Of a DNA stretch of 64,000 bases, positions 2,788 to 23,484 are shown piece after piece (the stretch's first letter is position 1; each line of letters starts with the position of its first letter). Under the pieces are notes generated by a model. It saw only the letters and a program-made list of their open reading frames with translations. It did no database searches and was not told where the DNA came from. Source of the stretch: Bacteroidales bacterium (GTDB lineage Bacteria; Bacteroidota; Bacteroidia; Bacteroidales; P3); the NCBI GenBank assembly GCA_017439185.1, contig JAFRTM010000012.1:124001-188000 (forward strand). Reading direction: 5' to 3'. The position numbers were made by a program, and so were the translations under genes.

Positions 2788-4920
2788 TTAATCCTCTTCG
2801 GTCTGCTGTTCCTCGTAGGCCTTGAGCAGTGCCTGCTGTACATCGGTCGGCACAAGCTCGTAGCTGCTGAATTCCATGGTGAACGTACCGCGGCCGCTGG
2901 TCAGCGAGCTCAGTGCGGTGCAGTAACGGTTCATCTCTGCCAACGGGGCTTTGGCTCTCAGGGTGGTGTATTTGCCTTCGGCGTCCATTCCCATCACCAT
3001 AGCTCTGCGGCCCTGCAGGTCGGTCATCACGCCTCCCTGGCTCTCTGTCGGCACGGTCACGGCCACGTCGTAGATAGGCTCCTTGATCTTCGGGGCTGCC
3101 TGTTTGAAGGCCTCGCGGAATGCCGTACGGCCGGCAATCTTGAAGGCCGTCTCGTTCGAATCCACCGGGTGCATCTTACCGTCGTAGATGTTCACCACGA
3201 TGTCGCGGGCGTAGGATCCGGTCAGTGGTCCCTGCTCCATCTTCTCCATGATACCTTTCAGGATGGCAGGCATGAAGCGTGCGTCGATCGAACCTCCCAC
3301 GATGCAGTTGTTGAACACCAGCTTGCCGCCCCACTCCAGCGGATACTCCTGAGTGTCGCGGATAGGATATTTCGTCTGGTTGGGCATGCCCTCGTAGTAA
3401 GGCTCTATCAGCATGTGCACCTCGCCGAACTGGCCGCTGCCGCCCGACTGTTTCTTGTGGCGGTACATGGCCTCGGCGCTCTTCGTGATGGTCTCACGGT
3501 AAGGCACGTTGGGTGCGGTGAAGTTCACAGCCAGCTTGTACTGGTTCTCGAAATACCATTTCACCGTGTTCAGGTGCAGCTCGCCCTGGCAGCCGAGGAT
3601 CACCTGGCGCAGCTCGCGGCTGTTCTCCAGCGTGAGGCTCTTGTCGTAGGTGGTGAGGTCTTTCAGTGCGGCGCCGACCTTCTCGTCGTCGTTGCTGTTG
3701 GCGGCTTTCACGGCTACCATATACACCGGCACCGGGAAGGCTATCTCCGTCACCACGTCGTCGGTGTTCTTGCCGGTGGTGAGGGTATGGTTGATCTTCA
3801 CGTCTTTCAGTTTGATGGTGCAGACGATGTCGCCGGCGCAGGCTTTCTCCACGCGCTGACGGTCTTTGCCCGAGCACACCAGCACCTGGCTCACTCTCTC
3901 CTTGCTCTGGTTGCAGGCGTTCACCACGTCCTGTGCCTCGGCCAGCTCGCCGTCGTAAATACGCAGGTAGGTGATCTCTCCCAGGTTCTTGTCCTTGGCG
4001 CTCTTGAAGGCGAAAGCCACGGTCGGGTTGCCGTTGTCGCATTTCAGGGCCTTGCCGCCCTTGGTCTGCTTGTTCTCGGCTACCTCGTTAGGTGCGGGCA
4101 CGTTCTCGCACACGAACTCGAGGAGGCGGGCAACTCCCATGTTCTCCTTGGCCGACGAGCAGAGAATCGGGAAGAGGTCTCTCTTGTCGATAGCCAGCTT
4201 CAGAGCCTTGGTGAGCTCTTCGGGCGTGAGGTCGCCGTTCTCGAAATATTTCTCCATCAAAGCATCGTCGGCAGCGGCGGCTTCCTCTACGAGTGCCATT
4301 CTCATCTCTTCGGCCTTGCCGGCAAATTCTGCCGGGATGTCGGCTGCCTCGGTCTTGCCGTCCTTGAAGGTGAGGAGCTTGTTGGCCACGATGTCAACCA
4401 CCTGGTTGAAGCCCAAGCCCTGGTTCACCGGGAACTGCAGCACGGTGCACTTGCCGCCGAAGAAGTCTTTCAGCTGGTTCACGCTGTCGTCGAAGTTGGC
4501 CTTCTCGGCGTCGAGGTGGTTCACCACGAAGAGCATCGGAGTGTTCAGCTTGGATGCGTAACGGTTGGCAACCTCGGTTCCAACCTCTACTCCGCTCTGG
4601 GCGTTCACCACCACCACGGCGGCTTCCACCACGCTCAGCGCGCTCACCAGCTCACCCTGATAGTCGGCGAAGCCAGGCACGTCGAGGATGTTGACCTTCT
4701 TGCCGCCAAACTCGGTGTACATCAACGTCGTCTCTACCGAATACTTACGGTCGAGCTCTATGTCGCGATAGTCGCTGATAGTATTTTTTCCGTCCACCGT
4801 GCCGCGACGGTTAATCAATCCTCCGCAGAAAGCCATAGCCTCCGCCATCGTGGTCTTGCCACTCTTCGCACCGCCCACGAGGGCAATGTTTCTAATGTCT
4901 GATGTCTGATAAATTTTCAT
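2788..4920 (-). CDS. EF-G-like translation factor (EF-G2 type) with altered GTPase motifs
   Basis: This 710-residue protein has the full EF-G layout: an N-terminal G domain followed by domains II-V. The G domain is divergent. The P-loop is GGAKSGKT (16-23). The switch I region reads KYSVET where classical EF-G has RGITI. G3 is DVPGF (80-84), so the catalytic His of DTPGH is Phe, and G4 is NHLD (134-137). The EF-G2 paralogue of Bacteroides thetaiotaomicron is known, from memory, to promote translocation without GTPase activity and to matter under carbon limitation and in the gut. I infer the same type of role here. The gene has its own promoter at 5032-5063 and a terminator after it. A canonical fusA is not in the window. 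EF-G family membership is certain; loss of GTPase activity is inferred from the motifs. Confidence 0.88.
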   Translation of the reverse strand: MKIYQTSDIRNIALVGGAKSGKTTMAEAMAFCGGLINRRGTVDGKNTISDYRDIELDRKYSVETTLMYTEFGGKKVNILDVPGFADYQGELVSALSVVEAAVVVVNAQSGVEVGTEVANRYASKLNTPMLFVVNHLDAEKANFDDSVNQLKDFFGGKCTVLQFPVNQGLGFNQVVDIVANKLLTFKDGKTEAADIPAEFAGKAEEMRMALVEEAAAADDALMEKYFENGDLTPEELTKALKLAIDKRDLFPILCSSAKENMGVARLLEFVCENVPAPNEVAENKQTKGGKALKCDNGNPTVAFAFKSAKDKNLGEITYLRIYDGELAEAQDVVNACNQSKERVSQVLVCSGKDRQRVEKACAGDIVCTIKLKDVKINHTLTTGKNTDDVVTEIAFPVPVYMVAVKAANSNDDEKVGAALKDLTTYDKSLTLENSRELRQVILGCQGELHLNTVKWYFENQYKLAVNFTAPNVPYRETITKSAEAMYRHKKQSGGSGQFGEVHMLIEPYYEGMPNQTKYPIRDTQEYPLEWGGKLVFNNCIVGGSIDARFMPAILKGIMEKMEQGPLTGSYARDIVVNIYDGKMHPVDSNETAFKIAGRTAFREAFKQAAPKIKEPIYDVAVTVPTESQGGVMTDLQGRRAMVMGMDAEGKYTTLRAKAPLAEMNRYCTALSSLTSGRGTFTMEFSSYELVPTDVQQALLKAYEEQQTEED

Positions 4921-16095: not shown

Positions 16096-18024
16096 TTAGT
16101 CTCTTATTTTTATTCGCTGGTCACTATAATACCTTTCGCCGGAATTGATATAAATGTATTTGGTACTTTTGCTTAATGCAGGATAAGTTTCGACAATTTC
16201 TACTATACTATTAGTATTCAATATGGTCCTCTCTGGATATATTTCAATGGAACTATTTTCTAAATAATATTTTTCCTTTGTTATGGCATCCTCAATAAAC
16301 TCTTCTCGATAGCTACGAATCCAAGTATTATAACTTTTGGGAATTACTTTTTTGTATAGTTTTGTATATCCGTCAGCGACTTCTATTTTAGTCAATCTAA
16401 AAGTATGTGCTGATGTCTCTATTTGGATATTTTGTTTTTCCACATCTACAATCACAGGAGATGTGGACGAATATGAATTTTGACCCTTACGAGTTTTTTG
16501 TTCATGATTGTTTCGTCTTTCAATTGCGCTTGAACATTTTATAAGATAAACATACCTTTTCAGTTTCTTGACCTGACCGCTTAATGGCAAGGTCGAGACT
16601 GTGTTGTTTGTGGGGAAGATATTGGTAAGGGACGATGATTCTGCGAGATTCTTAAGATATGATGTTTTAATAGCATATCCAACATTTTCTGTTCCTTTAT
16701 GATGAGCACAGATAACGCCAACGACATTCCCTTTACTGTCGAACAATGGCCCTCCACTATTGCCCGGCTGTAGCGGTGCTGTTATTTGATACAAAGCCGC
16801 ATCGCCTTGGAAGCCTGTTCGAGAACTTATTATTCCGTTGGTAAGTTTAATCTCATCTCCCATAGTTTGAGTTAACGGGTAGCCAAGCACGAAAATATCA
16901 TCGCCAACCTCTGCCATCCTTATGTTAATAGCATAGGGTAAAATGCCAAATCCTTTAAATCTATGGTCGCTGATCTTTACTATTGCCAAATCATTCACTT
17001 TGTCTGTAGCGACGACAGATGCCGTGTATGAAACATTATAATCTCCATTAATACCGCTTATATTTATGGATTTGGCATCTTCTACTACATGATAGTTGGT
17101 GACAACATATCCGTTTTTTAATGCAAACCCAGATCCCGACCATTCCTGTGTTTCTTCTCCCAATGCTTCGTTTGTAGATGAAGTTGGGTACATTTTTAGG
17201 TAAAAAGTTTTATGACTATTAATAATAGTAGTCATACTTGAACCGTCAAAGAACACATAGCAATCTGAAGAAGTGGTCTTGTCCATGTCATACCAGTCTG
17301 CCTTAAAAACACCTGCGGTTGCACTGGCACGAAGATCCGCTTGTACATCACCAGTATACCACCACGATATCCCCGGCTTACAACCAAGATAAAGTAATTG
17401 ATATTCATTACCTGATTTCACACAGCCAATACGATATCCTAAGTTATTTGTTGCCTCATATATTCCGCAAATGCCATCATTATTGGCATCTGCAAAATTC
17501 TTTATAGAAGATTCTGTCCATGAGGTACCACCTATTCGTGGATTGGTGATAGTGTAACCACTAAAACTATAACCATGACAAGACGAGCCATTATCAACCA
17601 AAGCAAATGATGTTAATCCAGGTGGAATCGCATCAAAAACTAAAGTGTATCTGCGAGTTTCACCTTTGTTCACATCGCTCCATCCCCAACCGTTATTTGT
17701 ATATGAAAGCCAAGCACAACTTAAATCTTTAAGGCTTCCGTCACTCTCCAACTCACCATAACATTTGTTTGAACGCCAATCTCCGGATGTTATATAGCAA
17801 TTGTCGCCATAAAAAATATTCAACCTCGATAGTTTTCTTGTCGCCATTACTTCAATGGTGACATATGTGCGACTTTTTGTTCTGTCTATCTGAACAGAAT
17901 ATAATCGACCTTTTTTACCGCCACTTTCGTCCGTATATGAACCATTCACAGATGTGTATTGGCATAACCCAATATTGGATGTAAGCAGCAGAATACCTAA
18001 AATAATTGCTCTTCTTATTTTCAT
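16096..18024 (-). CDS. Secreted HtrA-like trypsin-family protease with a large N-terminal region
   Basis: This 642-residue protein has a signal peptide (MKIRRAIILGILLLTSNIGLCQ). An N-terminal region (about 25-290) rich in Tyr, Ser and Trp has no family I know; it contains SGDWRSNKCYGE and a DANNDGICGIYEA stretch like a calcium-loop dockerin repeat. Residues about 295-470 are a trypsin-like domain with the triad in YVVTNYHVVED (His), KVNDLAIVKI (Asp) and LQPGNSGGPLFD (Ser). No PDZ domain follows. The C-terminal 170 residues are unassigned. It should act in the periplasm or outside the cell. It is AT-rich like the rest of the island. A structured RNA element (18079-18285) occupies most of its upstream region, so regulation through that leader is possible. 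Protease class sure, substrate unknown. Confidence 0.82.
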   Translation of the reverse strand: MKIRRAIILGILLLTSNIGLCQYTSVNGSYTDESGGKKGRLYSVQIDRTKSRTYVTIEVMATRKLSRLNIFYGDNCYITSGDWRSNKCYGELESDGSLKDLSCAWLSYTNNGWGWSDVNKGETRRYTLVFDAIPPGLTSFALVDNGSSCHGYSFSGYTITNPRIGGTSWTESSIKNFADANNDGICGIYEATNNLGYRIGCVKSGNEYQLLYLGCKPGISWWYTGDVQADLRASATAGVFKADWYDMDKTTSSDCYVFFDGSSMTTIINSHKTFYLKMYPTSSTNEALGEETQEWSGSGFALKNGYVVTNYHVVEDAKSINISGINGDYNVSYTASVVATDKVNDLAIVKISDHRFKGFGILPYAINIRMAEVGDDIFVLGYPLTQTMGDEIKLTNGIISSRTGFQGDAALYQITAPLQPGNSGGPLFDSKGNVVGVICAHHKGTENVGYAIKTSYLKNLAESSSLTNIFPTNNTVSTLPLSGQVKKLKRYVYLIKCSSAIERRNNHEQKTRKGQNSYSSTSPVIVDVEKQNIQIETSAHTFRLTKIEVADGYTKLYKKVIPKSYNTWIRSYREEFIEDAITKEKYYLENSSIEIYPERTILNTNSIVEIVETYPALSKSTKYIYINSGERYYSDQRIKIRD

Positions 18025-18078
18025 ATCTTATTGATTTTTTTACATCGAGCTTTTTCATTGTTCTCAATAAGATATAGA

Positions 18079-18285
18079 AAAGGCGTAAACCTTTCGTAAT
18101 TTCACTTATTTGAAGCTGTCGGTGTCTGGTAATACCTTCGAAATAAATAAGTGCAAAGATTCACGCCATGCGCGAACTTCAGCAAACTTATTCTCATTTC
18201 GATGTATCGTTTACCAGACTTTACAGCTTCGAGAACAAGAGCGTCCGCTCAAATTATTTAAATCTATATTTAATCTTTATGTCAT
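18079..18285 (-). ncRNA. Pseudoknotted RNA element, copy A
   Basis: This is about 205 bases of conserved structure shared with copy B at 22193-22395. The main stem pairs 18112-18119 with 18223-18230 and 18124-18132 with 18211-18219, with a 4/3-base internal loop. Copy B has the same stem lengths and loop but different bases, so pairs covary. A hairpin pairs 18160-18166 with 18170-18176, using a pair that is G-U only if the minus strand is the RNA. 18103-18111 pairs with 18145-18153, and 18082-18086 can pair with 18163-18167; both cross the main stem. It starts 4 bases after the stop of the frameshifted gene and ends 55 bases before the secreted protease ATG. It may be a cis-acting leader, a separate small RNA or a recombination site. 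No family is recognised. Confidence 0.6.
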
Positions 18286-18289
18286 GTAA

Positions 18290-18770
18290 TTATTTTATTT
18301 GAGAATAGTCCCATATTGGCATAGGTAGTATCTTCTTCTGAACAATCATCTTGTATTGGGTAGTATGCTTGGGTATGTTGAAGTTCGAAGATTGAACCCA
18401 AAAGAAAGCACTCTTGTTTTTTGTTGTTAATCTATTTATTTGGGGAGCTTTTTGTGGCAACCACGTTTTTATCCATTCCAGTTTCTTTAGCATTTTTTTC
18501 GACTTCGCTTGTGATCGCAGAATGAATCTCAATGTAAAAGACTTCTCCGTTGTAACCCAAGGCATAGTCCCATCGACACTCATTCGGATATAGTTCACGG
18601 GTGGTTGAATCAATATCTAAACTACCATCTATTTGGGATTGCTCTGGAACTTTGATTTTTGACGCATAGTTTCCGAATGCCGTAAGACCTATGCAATACC
18701 CATCTTTTACATCAGGTGTTGCAGCTACAGCATCCTTGAATGTCATGATATGTTTCTTGTTTTTCCCCAT
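18290..18770 (-). pseudogene. Frameshifted partner of the AAA ATPase, possibly nuclease-like
   Basis: Starting at the ATG at 18770, a 112-residue frame runs to 18432. The protein sequence clearly continues in the next frame to 18290. The switch is at a run of seven A on the coding strand (7 T at 18493-18499). With six A, the segment reads EVEKMLKKLEWIKTWL and gives a protein of about 159 residues. The merged protein contains RWDYALGYNGEVFYIEIHSA, a D...E-x-H arrangement that faintly resembles PD-(D/E)xK nucleases with the Lys changed, then a helix and FFWVQSSNFNIPK. It starts 8 bases after the AAA ATPase stop, so it is the second gene of that unit. The homopolymer shift may be a sequence error, phase variation or true decay. 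Function uncertain. Confidence 0.6.
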
Positions 18771-18778
18771 AAAATTCA

Positions 18779-19927
18779 CTATTCTGCATATTCGTATACA
18801 ACATCCGCCGCCCGTGATGAAAATTGAGACAACCCACCCCAACCAGATATTGCACAATTTTCACTTCCGGCATCGAGGGTTGAGATATCCGTGGATTCCA
18901 CCTTACCATTCGTTATTCTTGAAAAATAGTAGGTCGACATCTTTTTCTCAAACAGACCATCAAACAGGTGCGCTGTGGATTGGGTCTTTTTTATATCGAA
19001 TAATTTATACAATGCGTCCTCTTTTCTTTGTGCTGAAGATTCCTTTATTGTGTTGAAAGCCCATGCAAAATCAAGCAATGTGGTGGAGTGGGTGGAAATA
19101 ACAACCTTTAAGCCATTGTGCAACAACTCTAACACTTCCAATAAGATTGCCTTAATCGCTTGTGGATGCAGACCCATTTCAGGTTCTTCTATGACAACAT
19201 ATTTATAGTTATCCTTCTTAAACACAGGAGAAGGCGGTCCTGACAAACAATAAAAAGCAATCAGTAACGGCATGAACTCTTTCTGTCCTGCACTCCATGT
19301 CATGAATGGGATACTCATATCATCCACCTTCATTTTAAATTTCTTTTGTCCAGAGTATTCCTCCATCACAATTTTACCGCCATAAAAGATATTGTCATCG
19401 AACGTTTTTTTCAAAACACTCTTTAGTCTATTGCTGACAGGGAAGATGGTATTGGGATCTCCCATAGATCCTTGAATATAAGTCCTCAAGGTTTCACTAA
19501 AGGCGCGTAAAACATAAGGGGTTGACAAATCAAATTCCATAAAATTCTTTGGGCGTCCATCAGCAATGCTCAGAATTCGTTGTGCTGGAATGTAAAACAT
19601 CAGCTCCTTTTTGGGGACATTCCGTTTGATAAGAGTGTCCATGGATAATACCTTATCATTAAACAAAATCTCCGTTTCTGGTTTAAATATACTATTCATT
19701 CCATCACCAAAAATAACATCAAGAACTTTTTTAGGATTTTTTTTGTCAATAATGTAATTATACTTACGAAGATTGGCCAAAATGTATTCTTTGTCAACTA
19801 TGTATTTTAACAGTTCCAAGAAAAGGCTCTTTCCGCTGGCCTGAGGACCAACCAGAAGAGTGATGTCACCAAAGTTGACAGACACATGACCTATTGGGCC
19901 AAAATTGCTTATGCTAAGATTCTTCAT
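18779..19927 (-). CDS. OLD-like AAA ATPase of an accessory two-gene unit
   Basis: This protein of about 382 residues is an SMC/OLD-type ATPase. It has Walker A GPQASGKS, a signature-like WSAGQKEFMPL segment, Walker B YVVIEEPEMGLHP and the H-loop VVISTHSTT. It has no Toprim nuclease domain after the ATPase, unlike full OLD proteins; a nuclease-like partner may be the next gene. Such ATPases usually pair with an effector in anti-phage or plasmid-control systems, which I infer but cannot show. The frame is open to 19966, but the promoter box lies at 19957-19964. I chose the ATG at 19927, which has GGAG nine bases before it; 19942 is the alternative. AT-rich, with no signal peptide. Confidence 0.8.
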   Translation of the reverse strand: MKNLSISNFGPIGHVSVNFGDITLLVGPQASGKSLFLELLKYIVDKEYILANLRKYNYIIDKKNPKKVLDVIFGDGMNSIFKPETEILFNDKVLSMDTLIKRNVPKKELMFYIPAQRILSIADGRPKNFMEFDLSTPYVLRAFSETLRTYIQGSMGDPNTIFPVSNRLKSVLKKTFDDNIFYGGKIVMEEYSGQKKFKMKVDDMSIPFMTWSAGQKEFMPLLIAFYCLSGPPSPVFKKDNYKYVVIEEPEMGLHPQAIKAILLEVLELLHNGLKVVISTHSTTLLDFAWAFNTIKESSAQRKEDALYKLFDIKKTQSTAHLFDGLFEKKMSTYYFSRITNGKVESTDISTLDAGSENCAISGWGGLSQFSSRAADVVYEYAE

Positions 19928-19956
19928 ACTAAAATTCTCCATAAATTTCAATTTGC

Positions 19957-19986
19957 AAAAATACAACTTTTTTTTTTATCTGCAAA
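19957..19986 (-). promoter_or_regulatory. Promoter of the AAA ATPase unit
   Basis: On the minus strand TATTTTTG (complement of 19957-19964) has TTTG (complement of 19983-19986) 18 bases upstream. It fixes the ATPase start downstream of 19950. It probably also serves the frameshifted partner, RNA element A and possibly the secreted protease. Confidence 0.6.
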
Positions 19987-20218
19987 ATATATTTTGAAAT
20001 TGATAATTGGACGCAAAGAGACAACCGAGAGATTGCCGAAGGATCATTGGACTAAGTATTTATAATGAGCGCCATGCGTTCCTTTGTGGTGGTTGCTTGG
20101 CTTTTTGTTGGTTTTCAATGCATTGTAGTCGTTTCAAAGAAGGCACAAGAACCTACGAAGAAGGGGCGAAGAGTGGTGGTTATTGAAAGCCAGTACCGAT
20201 TATATAAGAGGAGGTGAA

Positions 20219-20315
20219 GTAAAGAGCCGGTGGTTCTTTACGATAGCGAAGCGGAGAAATTGCCCTCGCGGGCAATGCGGCCCAAAGGCCGCTCCGCGGA
20301 TCCGAACACCGCGGA
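20219..20315. repeat. Cluster of GC-rich hairpins with a three-way junction
   Basis: Four stems lie in a row. GTAAAGAGCC (20219-20228) pairs with 20232-20241. ATTGCCC (20259-20265) pairs with GGGCAAT (20270-20276). GCGGCC (20277-20282) pairs with GGCCGC (20287-20292). TCCGCGG (20293-20299) pairs with CCGCGGA (20309-20315). In addition GCGGAG (20251-20256) can pair with CTCCGC (20292-20297), enclosing the second and third stems as a Y-shaped junction. The segment is far richer in GC than its AT-rich surroundings. It may be a transposable-element end, a structured RNA or a recombination site. The rest of 19987-20331 shows no gene. Confidence 0.6.
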
Positions 20316-20331
20316 AAACTCTGCCAATAAC

Positions 20332-20370
20332 AACAAAGGGGTGCAATCATATGGTTGCACCCCCTTTGTT
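20332..20370. terminator. Strong bidirectional terminator
   Basis: AACAAAGGGGTGCAA (20332-20346) pairs with TTGCACCCCCTTTGTT (20355-20370). It lies about 100 bases after the stop of the 226-residue gene and probably ends the transcript of the three-gene unit at 20475-22089. Confidence 0.75.
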
Positions 20371-20474
20371 TAATTTTGAATTTCGCCTACTCTGGAATCA
20401 ATTTTCGTTTTCCTTGCTTATTTTCTATTCGAAAGATGTCATAGATGTGTTGCATGTATCTTCTGAGTTCCACT

Positions 20475-21155
20475 TTACATACTACGTGAATACATTTCTA
20501 CATCTTTCCTCAGTCTTTCGCATACCTTTTCATAAACAATGTTTCCAAGTTCTGCCTTTCTTTCTGATGATGTTTTGCTTATTTGATTGCAGTTGTCAAT
20601 GACATGCCTCTTTACGTTTTCGTAAGCATTCCTTTCTACTGCATTTACGAATTCATTGTTGACATTAGCTTTGTCTATAATACTATCATAAAGATAATAT
20701 GCAGTGAAAAGCATCTTTGTATTTGTGGCCATCGGCATATCCATCGGCAGACCATCATTAAGTATACCAATAAAACTAAGTGGACTTGAGCTCTTGTTTC
20801 GACATGATTGCTCCACTTTTCCAATCAGATGTTTTTGGTCTCGGATTAAAAGTATCATCAGTCGAGCTGCTGCTTCATCATGAATGTTTGTTTTGTTAGT
20901 TTTTAGAGCTTGCGAAAAACAAATGAAAGCATTTTCTGCTCGAACCTCTTGTATATCTTCATCTGGCTCTTGAAAACCGAGACATACTTGGAATATTTTG
21001 CCAATTAGAAGAGGACTATCCAGATTTAAGATTTCAGCTGGATGGTGAACAAAGTAATTGTAAATGTCGCCTCCGTGCTGTTCTAAACTAGTATAGTCTT
21101 GTGTCCCAAATGCTGTCCATGCCATAACGGCACTGAAATTAAGTTGATTATTCAT
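20475..21155 (-). CDS. Hypothetical protein, third gene of a leader-repeat unit
   Basis: This 226-residue soluble protein belongs to no family I recognise. It is predicted mostly helical and begins MNNQLNFSAVMAWTAFGTQD. It has a conserved-looking PMDMPMATNTKMLFTAYYLYDSI segment in the middle and a Lys/Glu-rich C-terminal helix. No signal peptide or membrane segment is seen. It is the last of three genes on the minus strand, each preceded by the same leader of about 31-40 bases. Its leader copy is at 21167-21197, about 11 bases before the ATG. The base composition is AT-rich like the rest of the island. A strong terminator follows. Function unknown. Confidence 0.65.
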   Translation of the reverse strand: MNNQLNFSAVMAWTAFGTQDYTSLEQHGGDIYNYFVHHPAEILNLDSPLLIGKIFQVCLGFQEPDEDIQEVRAENAFICFSQALKTNKTNIHDEAAARLMILLIRDQKHLIGKVEQSCRNKSSSPLSFIGILNDGLPMDMPMATNTKMLFTAYYLYDSIIDKANVNNEFVNAVERNAYENVKRHVIDNCNQISKTSSERKAELGNIVYEKVCERLRKDVEMYSRSM

Positions 21156-21166
21156 TATAATATCCG

Positions 21167-21197
21167 CCTGATTTATCCTGTTGGCTCTTCAGTTTTA
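21167..21197 (-). repeat. Leader repeat R1
   Basis: On the minus strand it reads AACTGAAGAGCC, then AACAGGATAAAT, then CAGG. It begins within the TAA stop of the 133-residue gene and ends just before the ATG of the 226-residue gene. It is one of three near-identical copies (with 21606-21645 and 22095-22134). Confidence 0.75.
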
Positions 21198-21596
21198 AAA
21201 GTTGTCCTCAATATAAAGTATTTCATCGCACATCTTTGCCAAAGTTGCACCCATCGAACTTGTATCGTTTACGAAAACTTGTTCTGATGCAAAGGCATTC
21301 TTCATTTCTTTGGCAAAATATTTTACTTGAGGCAAAAACATCATCAAGTACAAAGAGAAATCCGAGTTATTCATAATATCTTCCGGTCTGCCATAGTGAT
21401 AGTGTATAAATAAATATGCAATGGGGCATTTATAGAGACCATATGCCATTTTTGCTTCTGCTGCCGAGTCTGCACCTTCTTCAAGCATAAGTTGGGCAGC
21501 AAGTTTTACTCCGTACGTATCAACTTCCCTGTAAAGTGAAACGTACTCTTCTTTTGTCCATGGAGATTTTCTCCCCATATTAATTCCTTCAGCCAT
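21195..21596 (-). CDS. Hypothetical protein, second gene of a leader-repeat unit
   Basis: This 133-residue protein is of no family I know. It begins MAEGINMGRKSPWTKEEYVSLYREVD, which resembles a short helix-turn-helix or Myb-like start but is too short to call. It then has a helical, Ala/Met-rich body (AAQLMLEEGADSAAEAKMAYG) and ends acidic (EILYIEDNF). No export signal is seen. Met7 (GINMGRK) could be the start instead. A leader repeat precedes it (21606-21645), and its stop codon forms the first bases of the next repeat. The tight repeat-gene-repeat packing suggests a cassette-like insertion or a shared translation-control element. Function unknown. Confidence 0.65.
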   Translation of the reverse strand: MAEGINMGRKSPWTKEEYVSLYREVDTYGVKLAAQLMLEEGADSAAEAKMAYGLYKCPIAYLFIHYHYGRPEDIMNNSDFSLYLMMFLPQVKYFAKEMKNAFASEQVFVNDTSSMGATLAKMCDEILYIEDNF

Positions 21597-21605
21597 AGAT
21601 TTGTC

Positions 21606-21645
21606 ATTTTGCCAGTTTTATCCTGTTGGCTCGTCAGTTTTATAA
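21606..21645 (-). repeat. Leader repeat R2
   Basis: This is the second copy, between the 149- and 133-residue genes. On the minus strand it starts at the TAA stop of the former and reads AACTGACGAGCC, then AACAGGATAAAA, then CTGGC. Confidence 0.75.
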
Positions 21646-22089
21646 TGATTGTAGATTGTATTTATCTAACTTAATGGCTCCACTATTCATGTTTGAAAGT
21701 AAATCACTATAAATTCGGATTAGCATTTCATTTGTCTCGTGTCCATTGCGAAACATATCAAACAAATTCTCATGTATCATCGCTTGTAACAAACCATTCA
21801 CTCTCGATACAACCCCTACCTGAAACATTTTATACTCCAGCAAATCCTCCCCTTCTTCTGCTATACTATCAATCCATCCCCTCTCGTATTCATATTTCTC
21901 CCATGTGAAATAGACACCGTGGATTAAGGTTTTAACTATTTCGTAATATTGCATGGCATAGTCAATTTTTCCATCACTTTGCGCCTTCTCCCACATTAAT
22001 GAGCGATATTTTCTCAACTGTTTCACTGTTTGCAGTAAATCTTCTCTGGAGAATGGCGCATTTTCTCTTAAATGGTTGGAATTATTCAT
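21640..22089 (-). CDS. Hypothetical protein, first gene of a leader-repeat unit
   Basis: This 149-residue soluble protein is of no family I recognise. It is predicted all-helical, rich in Tyr, Glu and Met, with VKQLRKYRSLMWEKAQSDGKIDY near the start and NGHETNEMLIRIYSDLLSNM near the end. No signal peptide or catalytic motif is seen. The first two residues after Met (MNN) match the start of the 226-residue protein two genes on, but the rest does not. A leader repeat (22095-22134) lies directly upstream. Before that come RNA element B and a good promoter at 22420-22450, which I take as the promoter for the three-gene unit. Function unknown. Confidence 0.68.
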   Translation of the reverse strand: MNNSNHLRENAPFSREDLLQTVKQLRKYRSLMWEKAQSDGKIDYAMQYYEIVKTLIHGVYFTWEKYEYERGWIDSIAEEGEDLLEYKMFQVGVVSRVNGLLQAMIHENLFDMFRNGHETNEMLIRIYSDLLSNMNSGAIKLDKYNLQSL

Positions 22090-22094
22090 TATCT

Positions 22095-22134
22095 GTTTTG
22101 CCAGTTTTATCCTGTCGGCTCTTCAGTTTTTATT
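22095..22134 (-). repeat. Leader repeat R3
   Basis: This is the third copy of the leader, just upstream of the 149-residue gene. On the minus strand it reads AACTGAAGAGCC, then GACAGGATAAAA, then CTGGC. No gene precedes it directly; RNA element B does. Confidence 0.75.
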
Positions 22135-22192
22135 GTTCTTACTTTTGATGCTGCTTGGAGAGCAAGATGTGTTATGTTAGATAAGAAAAAAA

Positions 22193-22395
22193 GAAAGGCG
22201 TGAGACTTTCGTTTTGAATCCTTACTTCATAGTGGGCGACTGGTAATTGCCTTGGACAAATAAGGTAACGAATAATTCCACGCCAATGTGGAACTTTCAG
22301 TTTCTTATTCCCGTCCATAAGATTACCAGTCTTTACTATGGAGAACAAGCACTTCAAGCTCTATAGATTATTTATTTTCTGTGTTTTATGTCATA
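22193..22395 (-). ncRNA. Pseudoknotted RNA element, copy B
   Basis: This is the homologue of copy A, about 4.1 kb away. The main stem pairs 22228-22233 with 22335-22340 and 22238-22247 with 22322-22331, with the same 4/3-base internal loop as copy A. A hairpin pairs TTCCAC (22276-22281) with GTGGAA (22288-22293). GGCGTG (22197-22202) can pair with CACGCC (22279-22284), crossing the main stem and competing with that hairpin. On the minus strand the element ends CACGCC followed by a T-rich run, so termination or a switch is possible. A promoter at 22420-22450 points into it. All copies keep ATGACATAAA near the 5' side, a two-codon open frame. No known family is recognised. Confidence 0.65.
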
Positions 22396-22419
22396 ATGGC
22401 ATTATTCTGTTTCACGCTG

Positions 22420-22450
22420 CAAAGATACATAATATTATTTATATTGCAAA
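22420..22450 (-). promoter_or_regulatory. Promoter reading into RNA element B
   Basis: On the minus strand TATCTTTG (complement of 22420-22427) has TTTG (complement of 22447-22450) 19 bases upstream. Transcription would start near 22413 and run through RNA element B into the three-gene unit. Confidence 0.75.
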
Positions 22451-22538
22451 ATATCATTCCAATTCGGCTTCGATTTCTTCGATGGAGGGGAGAGAGGACC
22501 GGAGGTTGCTTGGGAGGGCTTGTCCGAGTTCGGATTAA

Positions 22539-22620
22539 GGAGAACAAGCACTTCAAGCTCTATGATTTCTTTATTCTATATGTCAGTTTTTATGTCATGA
22601 TTCATTCATTTTTCACGCTG
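22539..22620 (-). repeat. Partial third copy of the RNA element (C)
   Basis: 25 bases at 22539-22563 are identical to 22340-22364 in copy B. The similarity continues through TTTATGTCAT to TTTCACGCTG at 22611-22620, matching 22410-22419. Only the 5' side of the RNA (minus-strand sense) is present; the main stem is missing. It begins 4 bases after the stop of the TIR-like gene. Positions 22451-22538 between the copies are unassigned. Confidence 0.65.
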
Positions 22621-22623
22621 TAA

Positions 22624-23484
22624 TTATAATCTTAAAAGACACCTCTCCATGCATTCCGATAATGTCTTGGGCTCTCTACACATTCGCCGTATTGTACCAC
22701 TTTTTTCCAAATAATTAAACAATTTATCTTTCATTTCAGAGTTTCCGCGTATCATTTCGGGCATGACTCCTTCTTTGTCACAGAATTGATGTATTTTTTC
22801 AGAAATAAAGGAATCTATTACACTCAAATCATGCGGGTCTGTTATTGCTAATCTATCTAACCTGTCAAACCTATCTAATCTATCTAAACGGTAAGTAATG
22901 TATTCAAGTTTTTCCTGTAAAAACTCATTCATTGACCCTTCTTTTTTTTCAACATGAGCAACTTCAAAAGATCCAAAGTTCTTCAAAAAAGTTGTATATG
23001 TGGGATCTTTCTTTGCTTTCTCATCAGTGGCTTTTATCTTTTTTGCCAATTGGTCTTTAAAATCAAGAATCTTATTGTATCTCAAATCTCGTGGATAAGA
23101 CAAATGTTCAATTGGAGAAGTATCAAAAGAGTAGTCCGTTTTATCATCAATAACTATAATTGCAGGTTTGTCAAATGCCAAACGCATACCTAACTCAAAC
23201 ATTACATTGGGATTTTTTCCACTAACGTCACATACGACAATGTCATTACTGTAAATATTTTGGATTATTCGATTTTGAATAATACCGATATCATCAGCAT
23301 CGCTAACAAGATTAGATTCGTAACCCGCAGTACATATTGCTTCTGAAATAATGCTCTTAACTTCAGTTCAATGCTCACTGGGACACCCATCTATCGCTGA
23401 TATAGGCATAATAATACCACATGCAGGCTTGCTAGCGGCATCTTTAGTTTTATGTTCAGTTTTATTTTCAGATTTCTTCTCCAT
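22624..23484 (-). pseudogene. TIR/deoxyribosyltransferase-like protein with a premature TGA
   Basis: From the ATG at 23484 the frame encodes about 286 residues but has TGA at 23368-23370 (codon 39), where GCPSEH*TEVKSIISEA would be expected to have Trp. Beyond it the frame is intact: SDADDIGIIQNRIIQNIYSN, IVVCDVSGKNPNVMFELGMRLAF. This is the signature of nucleoside 2-deoxyribosyltransferase/TIR-like folds seen in bacterial defence and stress proteins. The C-terminal part contains an unusual YRLDRLDRFDRLDRLA repeat and a helical end. Restarting at Met95 (23202) would lose part of the fold. One G-to-A change explains the stop, so the gene may be recently broken, or the base may be wrong. It has its own promoter box at 23568. 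Confidence 0.7.
22851..22886 (-). repeat. Nine-base tandem repeat inside the TIR-like gene
   Basis: Four in-frame 9-base units (ATCTATCTA-type on the plus strand) encode repeated Leu-Asp-Arg triplets. The unit keeps the frame, so copy-number change would lengthen or shorten a charged helix. Confidence 0.7.

Follow-up and report, generated by a model that had tools for sequence, protein, structure and literature searches.

The stretch of DNA analysed here, the window, comprises 64,000 nucleotides (nt) of a contig from a Bacteroidales bacterium (JAFRTM010000012.1, assembly GCA_017439185.1). It contains two copies, A and B, of an RNA element, and both are members of a family of structured 5′ leader RNAs from gut and environmental Bacteroidia. 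The leaders stand ahead of unrelated accessory genes and probably constitute an on/off switch. The family is apparently absent from catalogues; a description in the supplements of PMC8040213 or PMC9723704 is possible. With moderate confidence, we read the cis-acting leader as a putative transcription attenuator with two mutually exclusive folds.

Judged by comparison of sequences, this attenuator mechanism appears well supported. The comparison supports the RNA itself, its strand, the stems P1 to P3, the pairings M:D and (in the genus set) A:U, and two short hairpins. From these we infer that M:D would stop transcription, that the gene would be on in the other fold (fold N), that two loops may kiss and that a cell signal would pick the fold. 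It is unusual for one RNA to show covariation for two exclusive folds, and this opens the mechanism to direct testing. Furthermore, the family appears to be widespread, cis-regulatory and missing from Rfam 15, in a phylum for which little is known of control after transcription.

Architecture of the leader

Two elements had been placed at 18079-18285 and 22193-22395 in a preliminary description of this DNA, which left the strand open. Both are present on the minus strand, to which all coordinates below refer unless noted. Copy A spans 22394-22197 and copy B 18285-18082, each opening with a conserved ATG-ACA-TAA and closing with the last pairing strand, and they are the 5′ leaders of genes starting at 22089 and 18024, respectively. 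The layout is the same in both, and the stem letters reported earlier were recovered: copy A has CATAGT/ACTATG and GACTGGTAAT/ATTACCAGTC, copy B has GAAGCTGT/ACAGCTTC and GTCTGGTAA/TTACCAGAC, and a 3/4-base internal loop separates the two stems in each case.

On the transcribed strand, the 5′ part consists of a promoter box (copy A only), a minimal open reading frame (ORF), hairpin h0, strand A (CUUGUUCUC) and the 5′ arms P1a, P2a and P3a. These are followed by strand U (G(A/G)GAAUAAG), the 5′ arm of the tip hairpin, strand M (GGCGUG...CUUAUUU) and P3b. The 3′ part comprises GG(U/C), P2b, (A/G)CC, P1b, strand D (AA.UAAG...ACGCC) and a U-rich stretch.

In copy A, the putative minimal ORF ATG-ACA-TAA lies at 22386..22394, and h0 with strand A at 22341..22361; strand A itself (CTTGTTCTC, 22349-22341) is complementary to U. 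The rod fold (22228..22340) is formed by P1 (22340-22335/22233-22228), P2 (22331-22322/22247-22238) and P3 (22316-22313/22257-22254), and its tip, within the same interval, holds U (22312-22304), the P5 arm (22294-22288) and M (22284-22258). The predicted terminator half (22186..22227) contains D (22227-22197), complementary to M, and then the U-rich TTTCTTTTTTT (22196-22186). A promoter pointing into one copy had also been proposed. Indeed, a promoter-like site at 22420..22450, made of TTTG (22450-22447) and TATCTTTG (22427-22420), points into copy A and matches the TAnnTTTG promoter box of Bacteroidetes, which is named in PMC9723704; ahead of copy B, no such site was seen by eye.

In copy B, ATG-ACA-TAA lies at 18277..18285, and h0 (GAGCGGACGCTC) with strand A (18239-18231) at 18231..18250. 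The rod fold (18112..18230) has P1 at 18230-18223/18119-18112, P2 at 18219-18211/18132-18124 and P3 at 18200-18196/18144-18140, and its tip carries U (18195-18187), the P5 arm (18177-18170) and M (18167-18145). Strand D (18111-18082), again complementary to M, and a weaker U-rich stretch (TTTTCTATATCTT, 18081-18069) fill 18069..18111.

Strand and covariation of the rod

Covariation was assessed in two alignments: A4, with 98 rows from 96 loci (L120 and L154 occur twice), was fitted to the structure model, and A2, with 31 rows, was produced by MAFFT. In addition, a genus set was assembled from 62 first loci, of which 51 copies were used; six repeat fetches of one place, two loci unrecovered by local BLAST, one without a clear 3′ end and two short partials were left out. 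Rows derived from a pattern scan come mostly from other Bacteroidales and in part from the window's genus. The letters of U and P5 are fixed in these rows, which weakens the U:M and A:U covariation tests on them.

Both copies fold better than dinucleotide shuffles on either strand (z from -3.7 to -5.6). Only on the plus strand of copy B did any shuffles fold as well (2 of 200). The functional strand is the minus strand, because G-U pairs exceed A-C mismatches there: 157 against 43 in A4, an alignment fitted to structure, and 64 against 17 in A2, where P2 to P5 only were counted.

Covariation of P1 to P3 is very strong. The suggestion, made originally from the two copies, that stem pairs change together holds across the genus: in an alignment-free comparison of P1 arms from 47 distinct genus copies (segments of six rows set by hand), native partners score 14.1 and swapped partners 6.9, and none of 2000 permutations reaches the native value. 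In A4, 96.5% of the rod cells are paired, the covariation score is 0.613 against 0.155 for shuffled and at most 0.080 for slid controls, and all 18 pairs of P1 to P3 change on both sides. The corresponding score in A2 is 0.353 (0.142 shuffled, at most 0.118 slid), with 12 of the 18 pairs changing on both sides.

Evidence for a second fold

The pairing between M and D is formed in 92.6% of cells, with a covariation score of 0.272 against 0.179 for shuffled and at most 0.087 for slid controls. The middle part of M:D scores 13.6 with native and 10.0 with swapped partners (none of 1000 permutations), whereas the same segment set against the middle of U gives 8.8 and 8.7 (302 of 1000). Within the genus set alone, the M:D middle retains the difference (46 distinct copies; 12.8 against 11.3; 0 of 5000). 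Strands A and U covary there as well: 43 distinct genus pairs, for example TTGTTTCC with GGAAATAAG, score 15.9 against 15.1 (0 of 5000), two of the 51 copies having no recognisable U. By eye, the A:U letters also differ in diverged copies, with CUCUUG/CAAGAG at a locus of the window's own genome (L186) and UCUCG/CGAGA or UCUUGU/ACAAGA in loci of other orders.

Two short hairpins, around P2a and P2b, were each reached by none of 2000 permutations in all rows, and by 0 and 8 of 2000 in pattern-derived rows alone. When 95 segment pairs were compared all against all (A and U not included), the six predicted pairs ranked first, with z of 37.7, 25.7, 20.7, 14.9, 9.6 and 4.7 and a median over pairs of 0.17. 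Beginning at about the end of D, a segment of 12 nt contains 8.1 U on average and at least six U in 97 of 98 rows.

Since M:D and A:U covary too, two exclusive folds appear to be selected. That U and M hardly vary would be explained by each having two partners. Two mutually exclusive pairings, one of them a terminator-like stem followed by U, characterise a transcription attenuator, and this arrangement was found here, the U:M side being indicated by pairing and not by covariation. When prefixes of the two copies are folded, A:U arises first and gives way to U:M once M is present.

The hairpin and the two sets of crossing pairings noted in the preliminary description do exist. The term 'pseudoknotted' has to be revised, as the crossing pairs are better read as a second, alternative fold with covarying M:D and A:U. 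A true pseudoknot, in which rod and M:D would coexist, was rejected by an argument from geometry rather than by calculation: A and D adjoin P1, whereas U and M lie next to P3, at the far end of a rod about 20 base pairs long. Likewise, the GGU/ACC pairs were considered as a pseudoknot and are replaced by a nested hairpin in the terminating fold (fold T).

Several observations weigh against the attenuator reading. The permutation tests make no correction for relatedness. Two of five rod measures are hardly or not above shuffles: pairs changed on both sides number 20 against 17.0 in A4 and 13 against 11.6 in A2 (81 of 500 shuffles), and the pair-type count is reached by 268 of 500 shuffles in A4 and by 36 of 500 in A2. 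U:M (P4, P5) is almost without compensating changes in either alignment, partly because the search pattern fixed it. A:U covariation is absent in A4, where 947 of 1000 permutations reach the native value and the pattern fixed U in most rows. One unpredicted segment pair attains z 4.4, and the U-rich stretch of copy B is weak. As for energies, both copies at full length adopt the rod as their minimum-free-energy (MFE) fold, and M:D occurs in no prefix MFE fold tested; over the 98 rows, the rod segment averages -51.9 kcal/mol against -30.2 for M..D and -10.9 for A..U together (segment MFEs). Finally, no common function or pathway was found among the downstream proteins classed, whereas the genes behind a riboswitch would be expected to belong to one pathway.

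Proposed mechanism

In fold N, the read-through state, the arms of P1, P2 and P3 would form the long rod, whose tip holds U paired with M. In fold T, the stop state, strand A, located just 5′ of P1, would pair with U, and M with D. The U-rich stretch follows D immediately, so that M:D could be an intrinsic terminator ahead of the gene; U:M would then be the antiterminator and A:U the anti-antiterminator. Fold T would further contain short hairpins, AAA:UUU around P2a and GGU:ACC around P2b, displaying P2a and P2b in their loops. Kissing of these two loops is a plausible route between the folds. A cell signal (a ligand, a protein or the state of a ribosome) would choose between them. As the rod is the more stable fold by energy, read-through would be the default, and termination would need a factor or a kinetic step; something would have to hold the rod off for termination to occur.

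A broader proposal, towards which we remain slightly on the sceptical side, is that the leaders make up a new class of Bacteroidia RNA switches. The hairpins formed with A:U and M:D would carry the halves of P2 in their loops, and kissing would zip the RNA into the rod and abolish the terminator. One common signal would govern scattered, unrelated accessory genes (HTH regulators, restriction-modification systems, surface leucine-rich-repeat (LRR) proteins, peptidases and TonB receptors). Once found, such a signal would explain why unrelated accessory genes have one leader in common.

Downstream genes and alternative readings

Of the 98 rows of A4, 70 had room for a test of gene orientation. 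In 67 of them, the longest ORF downstream has the same sense as the leader; for the longest ORF upstream, this holds in 45. A conserved fold stands upstream of sense genes, as in riboswitches. Among pattern-derived copies, 65 of 72 have the start of a same-strand ORF between -20 and +350 nt, and four of the other seven lie within 705 nt of the locus end.

Distances to the start codon bear on a reading in which the same two folds act on translation or messenger stability, M:D hiding or exposing the start region and the U-rich stretch being merely A/U-rich. This is the better of the alternatives, albeit an unlikely one. The chosen start codon comes only 2-13 nt past the end of the match in 11 of the 65 pattern-derived copies, and Bacteroides tetQ is cited as a translational attenuator in PMC5418344. 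On the other hand, 30 of the 49 genus copies with a chosen ORF have its start 60-130 nt past the match, often (by eye) with another hairpin between, and the richness in U after D is nearly universal among the rows.

Less probable still seems a small RNA in its own right, some 200-230 nt long and equipped with a promoter and a terminator, to which the downstream gene would be a mere neighbour. Consistent with it, 23 of 51 genus copies have a TAnnTTTG box no more than 110 nt ahead of h0, and locus L008 has a partial copy with another terminator-like hairpin. Yet the bias of downstream ORFs towards sense speaks for a link to the gene, and a start codon within 15 nt leaves that gene no room for a promoter of its own.

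Translation of the minimal ORF could itself decide between A:U and U:M, as in an attenuator governed by the ribosome; we hold this to be improbable. In the genus set, 46 of 51 copies have ATG followed by zero or one codon and a stop within the 70 nt that precede h0, at a distance of 27-43 nt from it, against 9.3 expected from single-base shuffles. In a comparable stretch of pattern-derived rows, however, only 20 of 71 have it against 11.6 expected, and a plain nucleotide motif (TGACATAA) accounts for many cases. Moreover, a ribosome at the minimal ORF would fall short of strand A, its footprint being too short to span that distance. The ATG-stop sequence may be either a genuine minimal ORF or simply a motif at the nucleotide level.

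A recombination site folding as single-stranded DNA, comparable to integron attC, would account for a layout kept while stem letters change and for copies ahead of unrelated accessory genes, but is very improbable given the excess of G-U over A-C on one strand, the fixed orientation to genes, the terminator-like end and the lack of matches in viral contigs (one pattern), phage records (copy B query) and plasmid records (copy A query). In the preliminary description, a leader switch, a small RNA and such a DNA site had been offered side by side. A functional structured RNA upstream of accessory genes is borne out, with the leader switch best supported and the stand-alone small RNA possible but weaker; the recombination site finds no support.

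The types of genes behind the attenuator candidate are mixed. Among 61 downstream proteins, Pfam (best 25 of 37 families) gave seven HTH_26, three HTH_3, six BspA-type LRR, five Por secretion tails and various types of DNA methylase. For 45 genus proteins, 19 families with one or two members each were obtained, including peptidase, DnaJ, ResIII and AAA. PADLOC (best 25 of 130 families) reported mainly methyltransferases. In other orders, four of six downstream proteins have a TonB plug and a carboxypeptidase-like domain, and one of the six is a sigma factor. By eye, 16 of 65 ORFs downstream of pattern-derived copies look like one small HTH family; a small HTH gene was dismissed as the common target, as it follows only part of the copies. 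Small HTH-like proteins (IHIG...WLA...CDR.N.YKIF) come after the leader at L130 (2906-3235) and at other pattern-derived loci. A gene that looks RelE/Gp49-like by eye lies near the leader of L130 and suggests a toxin-antitoxin pair.

Retron- or reverse-transcriptase-linked RNAs, RNAs of RNA-guided nucleases and type III toxin-antitoxin RNAs were discarded, as no such gene stood out among the downstream families (best 25 in the two longer listings); only downstream genes had been classed, and no search aimed at trans-acting enzymes was made. We also considered an island fixed between dnaK and nadB. While 21 of 21 genus genomes have nadB, the neighbourhood is variable, because the flanks (up to 1.5 kb) of 15 other loci lack both the dnaK piece and the gene at 22624.

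Distribution of the family

A DNA search with each copy gave matches in 28 of 99 genomes, all 28 within the genus for copy A and 26 within the genus plus two weak ones outside for copy B. A covariance model built from 31 copies reaches further. It matched 79 of 99 genomes of the genus (own counted), with one to nine matches each, some of which may be the reverse strand of one place, 56 of 295 genomes of the order (own counted), and 19 of 395 genomes of a phylum sample including the window's own; the other 18 belong to other orders of the class. The larger genome runs used stricter filters and lost weak matches. All 100 loci tested (L063-L162) were matched too, these having been chosen beforehand by a pattern scan of genome contigs. 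Among the 80 of 120 scan loci that were listed are termite-gut Symbiothrix, Prevotella, Paraprevotella, Alloprevotella and Tannerella, as well as Dysgonamonadaceae, Muribaculaceae, Paludibacteraceae, Salinivirgaceae and one Fibrobacter record. The covariance search, advised at the outset as a check, yielded further homologues with covarying pairs. The outcome named there as a refutation, a lack of such homologues or a match to a known element, did not occur.

Within the window's genome, the model identifies seven places: copies A and B, a third close copy and four that have diverged (E 5e-6 to 3e-5). Its eighth match falls on the opposite strand of a copy already known. Four loci of this genome (L186-L189) represent a second subfamily with another start (CCGATTTC...GAAATCA.GAAGCGTTATGC or close). 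L186 and L187 are each followed by a gene whose product resembles a lipoprotein or a secreted protein; in L188, a small gene is followed by a secreted one.

Comparison with known RNAs

The element had been called unrecognised, and it still is: scans against Rfam 15 (at the gathering score, and also with E up to 10 or 1) gave no credible match on the window elements or on 27 distinct loci. The sole exception was a MicC match on the plus strand (22380-22486; E 7), far below the gathering score. Flavo-1 (RF01705) and Bacteroidales-1 (RF01693) had no match up to E 1 in the 19 loci scanned; PMC2864571 presents them as computed RNA motifs of Bacteroidetes. One Symbiothrix locus with a leader (L064) also contains the Rfam small RNA BTncRNA_FopS at 1538-1611 (78.7 bits).

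The trp leader is a ribosome-mediated attenuator. Together with the ermC and Bacteroides tetQ leaders, it resembles the present family in having, within a 5′ leader, a chain of exclusive pairings 1:2, 2:3 and 3:4. The ermC and tetQ leaders are cited as attenuators in PMC5418344. Unlike in these systems, the exchange in our leaders is embedded in a long covarying rod, the minimal ORF is only putative and the downstream genes are unrelated. Transcriptional riboswitches have a compact conserved fold and an alternative terminator. In this they are alike, the conserved fold being followed by an alternative terminator before the gene, but the genes of the leader family share no evident pathway and no ligand is known. 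An HTH-XRE RNA motif from a survey of 2017 reportedly sits upstream of XRE-type HTH genes. The likeness consists in the HTH genes downstream of some leaders; none of the loci scanned is matched by an Rfam model.

A literature search found no description of the family among the titles and abstract openings listed; supplementary lists of candidate RNAs stood outside the comparison. Some members may be listed in the supplement of PMC8040213, a paper that names HTH-XRE among the two gene domains most often found near 3161 candidate RNAs of human microbiomes. From a Flavobacterium, 64 structured 5′ regions are reported in PMC9723704. Long 5′ untranslated regions and short ORFs are described for Bacteroides thetaiotaomicron (PMC7366714).

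Neighbouring features in the window

The gene 3′ of copy A (21640..22089, start 22089) encodes 149 amino acids (aa), and the protein matched no Pfam family at E 0.01. The gene 3′ of copy B (16096..18024, start 18024) encodes a trypsin-like peptidase (PF13365) of 642 aa.

A partial leader copy at 22536..22628 has the start region, h0 and strand A and is without a rod. Similar promoter-plus-start pieces lacking the rod occur at about 580-640 of locus L008 and in the upstream parts of L016 and L017. The piece in L008 is followed by another GC hairpin and a U run; such pieces would be relics or a second, shorter RNA. Between the partial copy and copy A (about 22448-22530), an open stretch of 26 codons runs up to a stop (SELGQALPSNLRSSLPSIEEIEAELE) and resembles the remaining end of a gene that was deleted.

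A hairpin GCC-GACAGGATAAAACT-GGC is located at 22100..22119, ahead of the start codon of the copy A gene. A short hairpin with the loop ACAGGATAAAAC directly precedes three successive start codons (21147-21203, 21592-21648 and 22081-22137) and is also seen in many leaders of relatives, where its GCC/GGC stems change together by eye. It may be a separate translation element.

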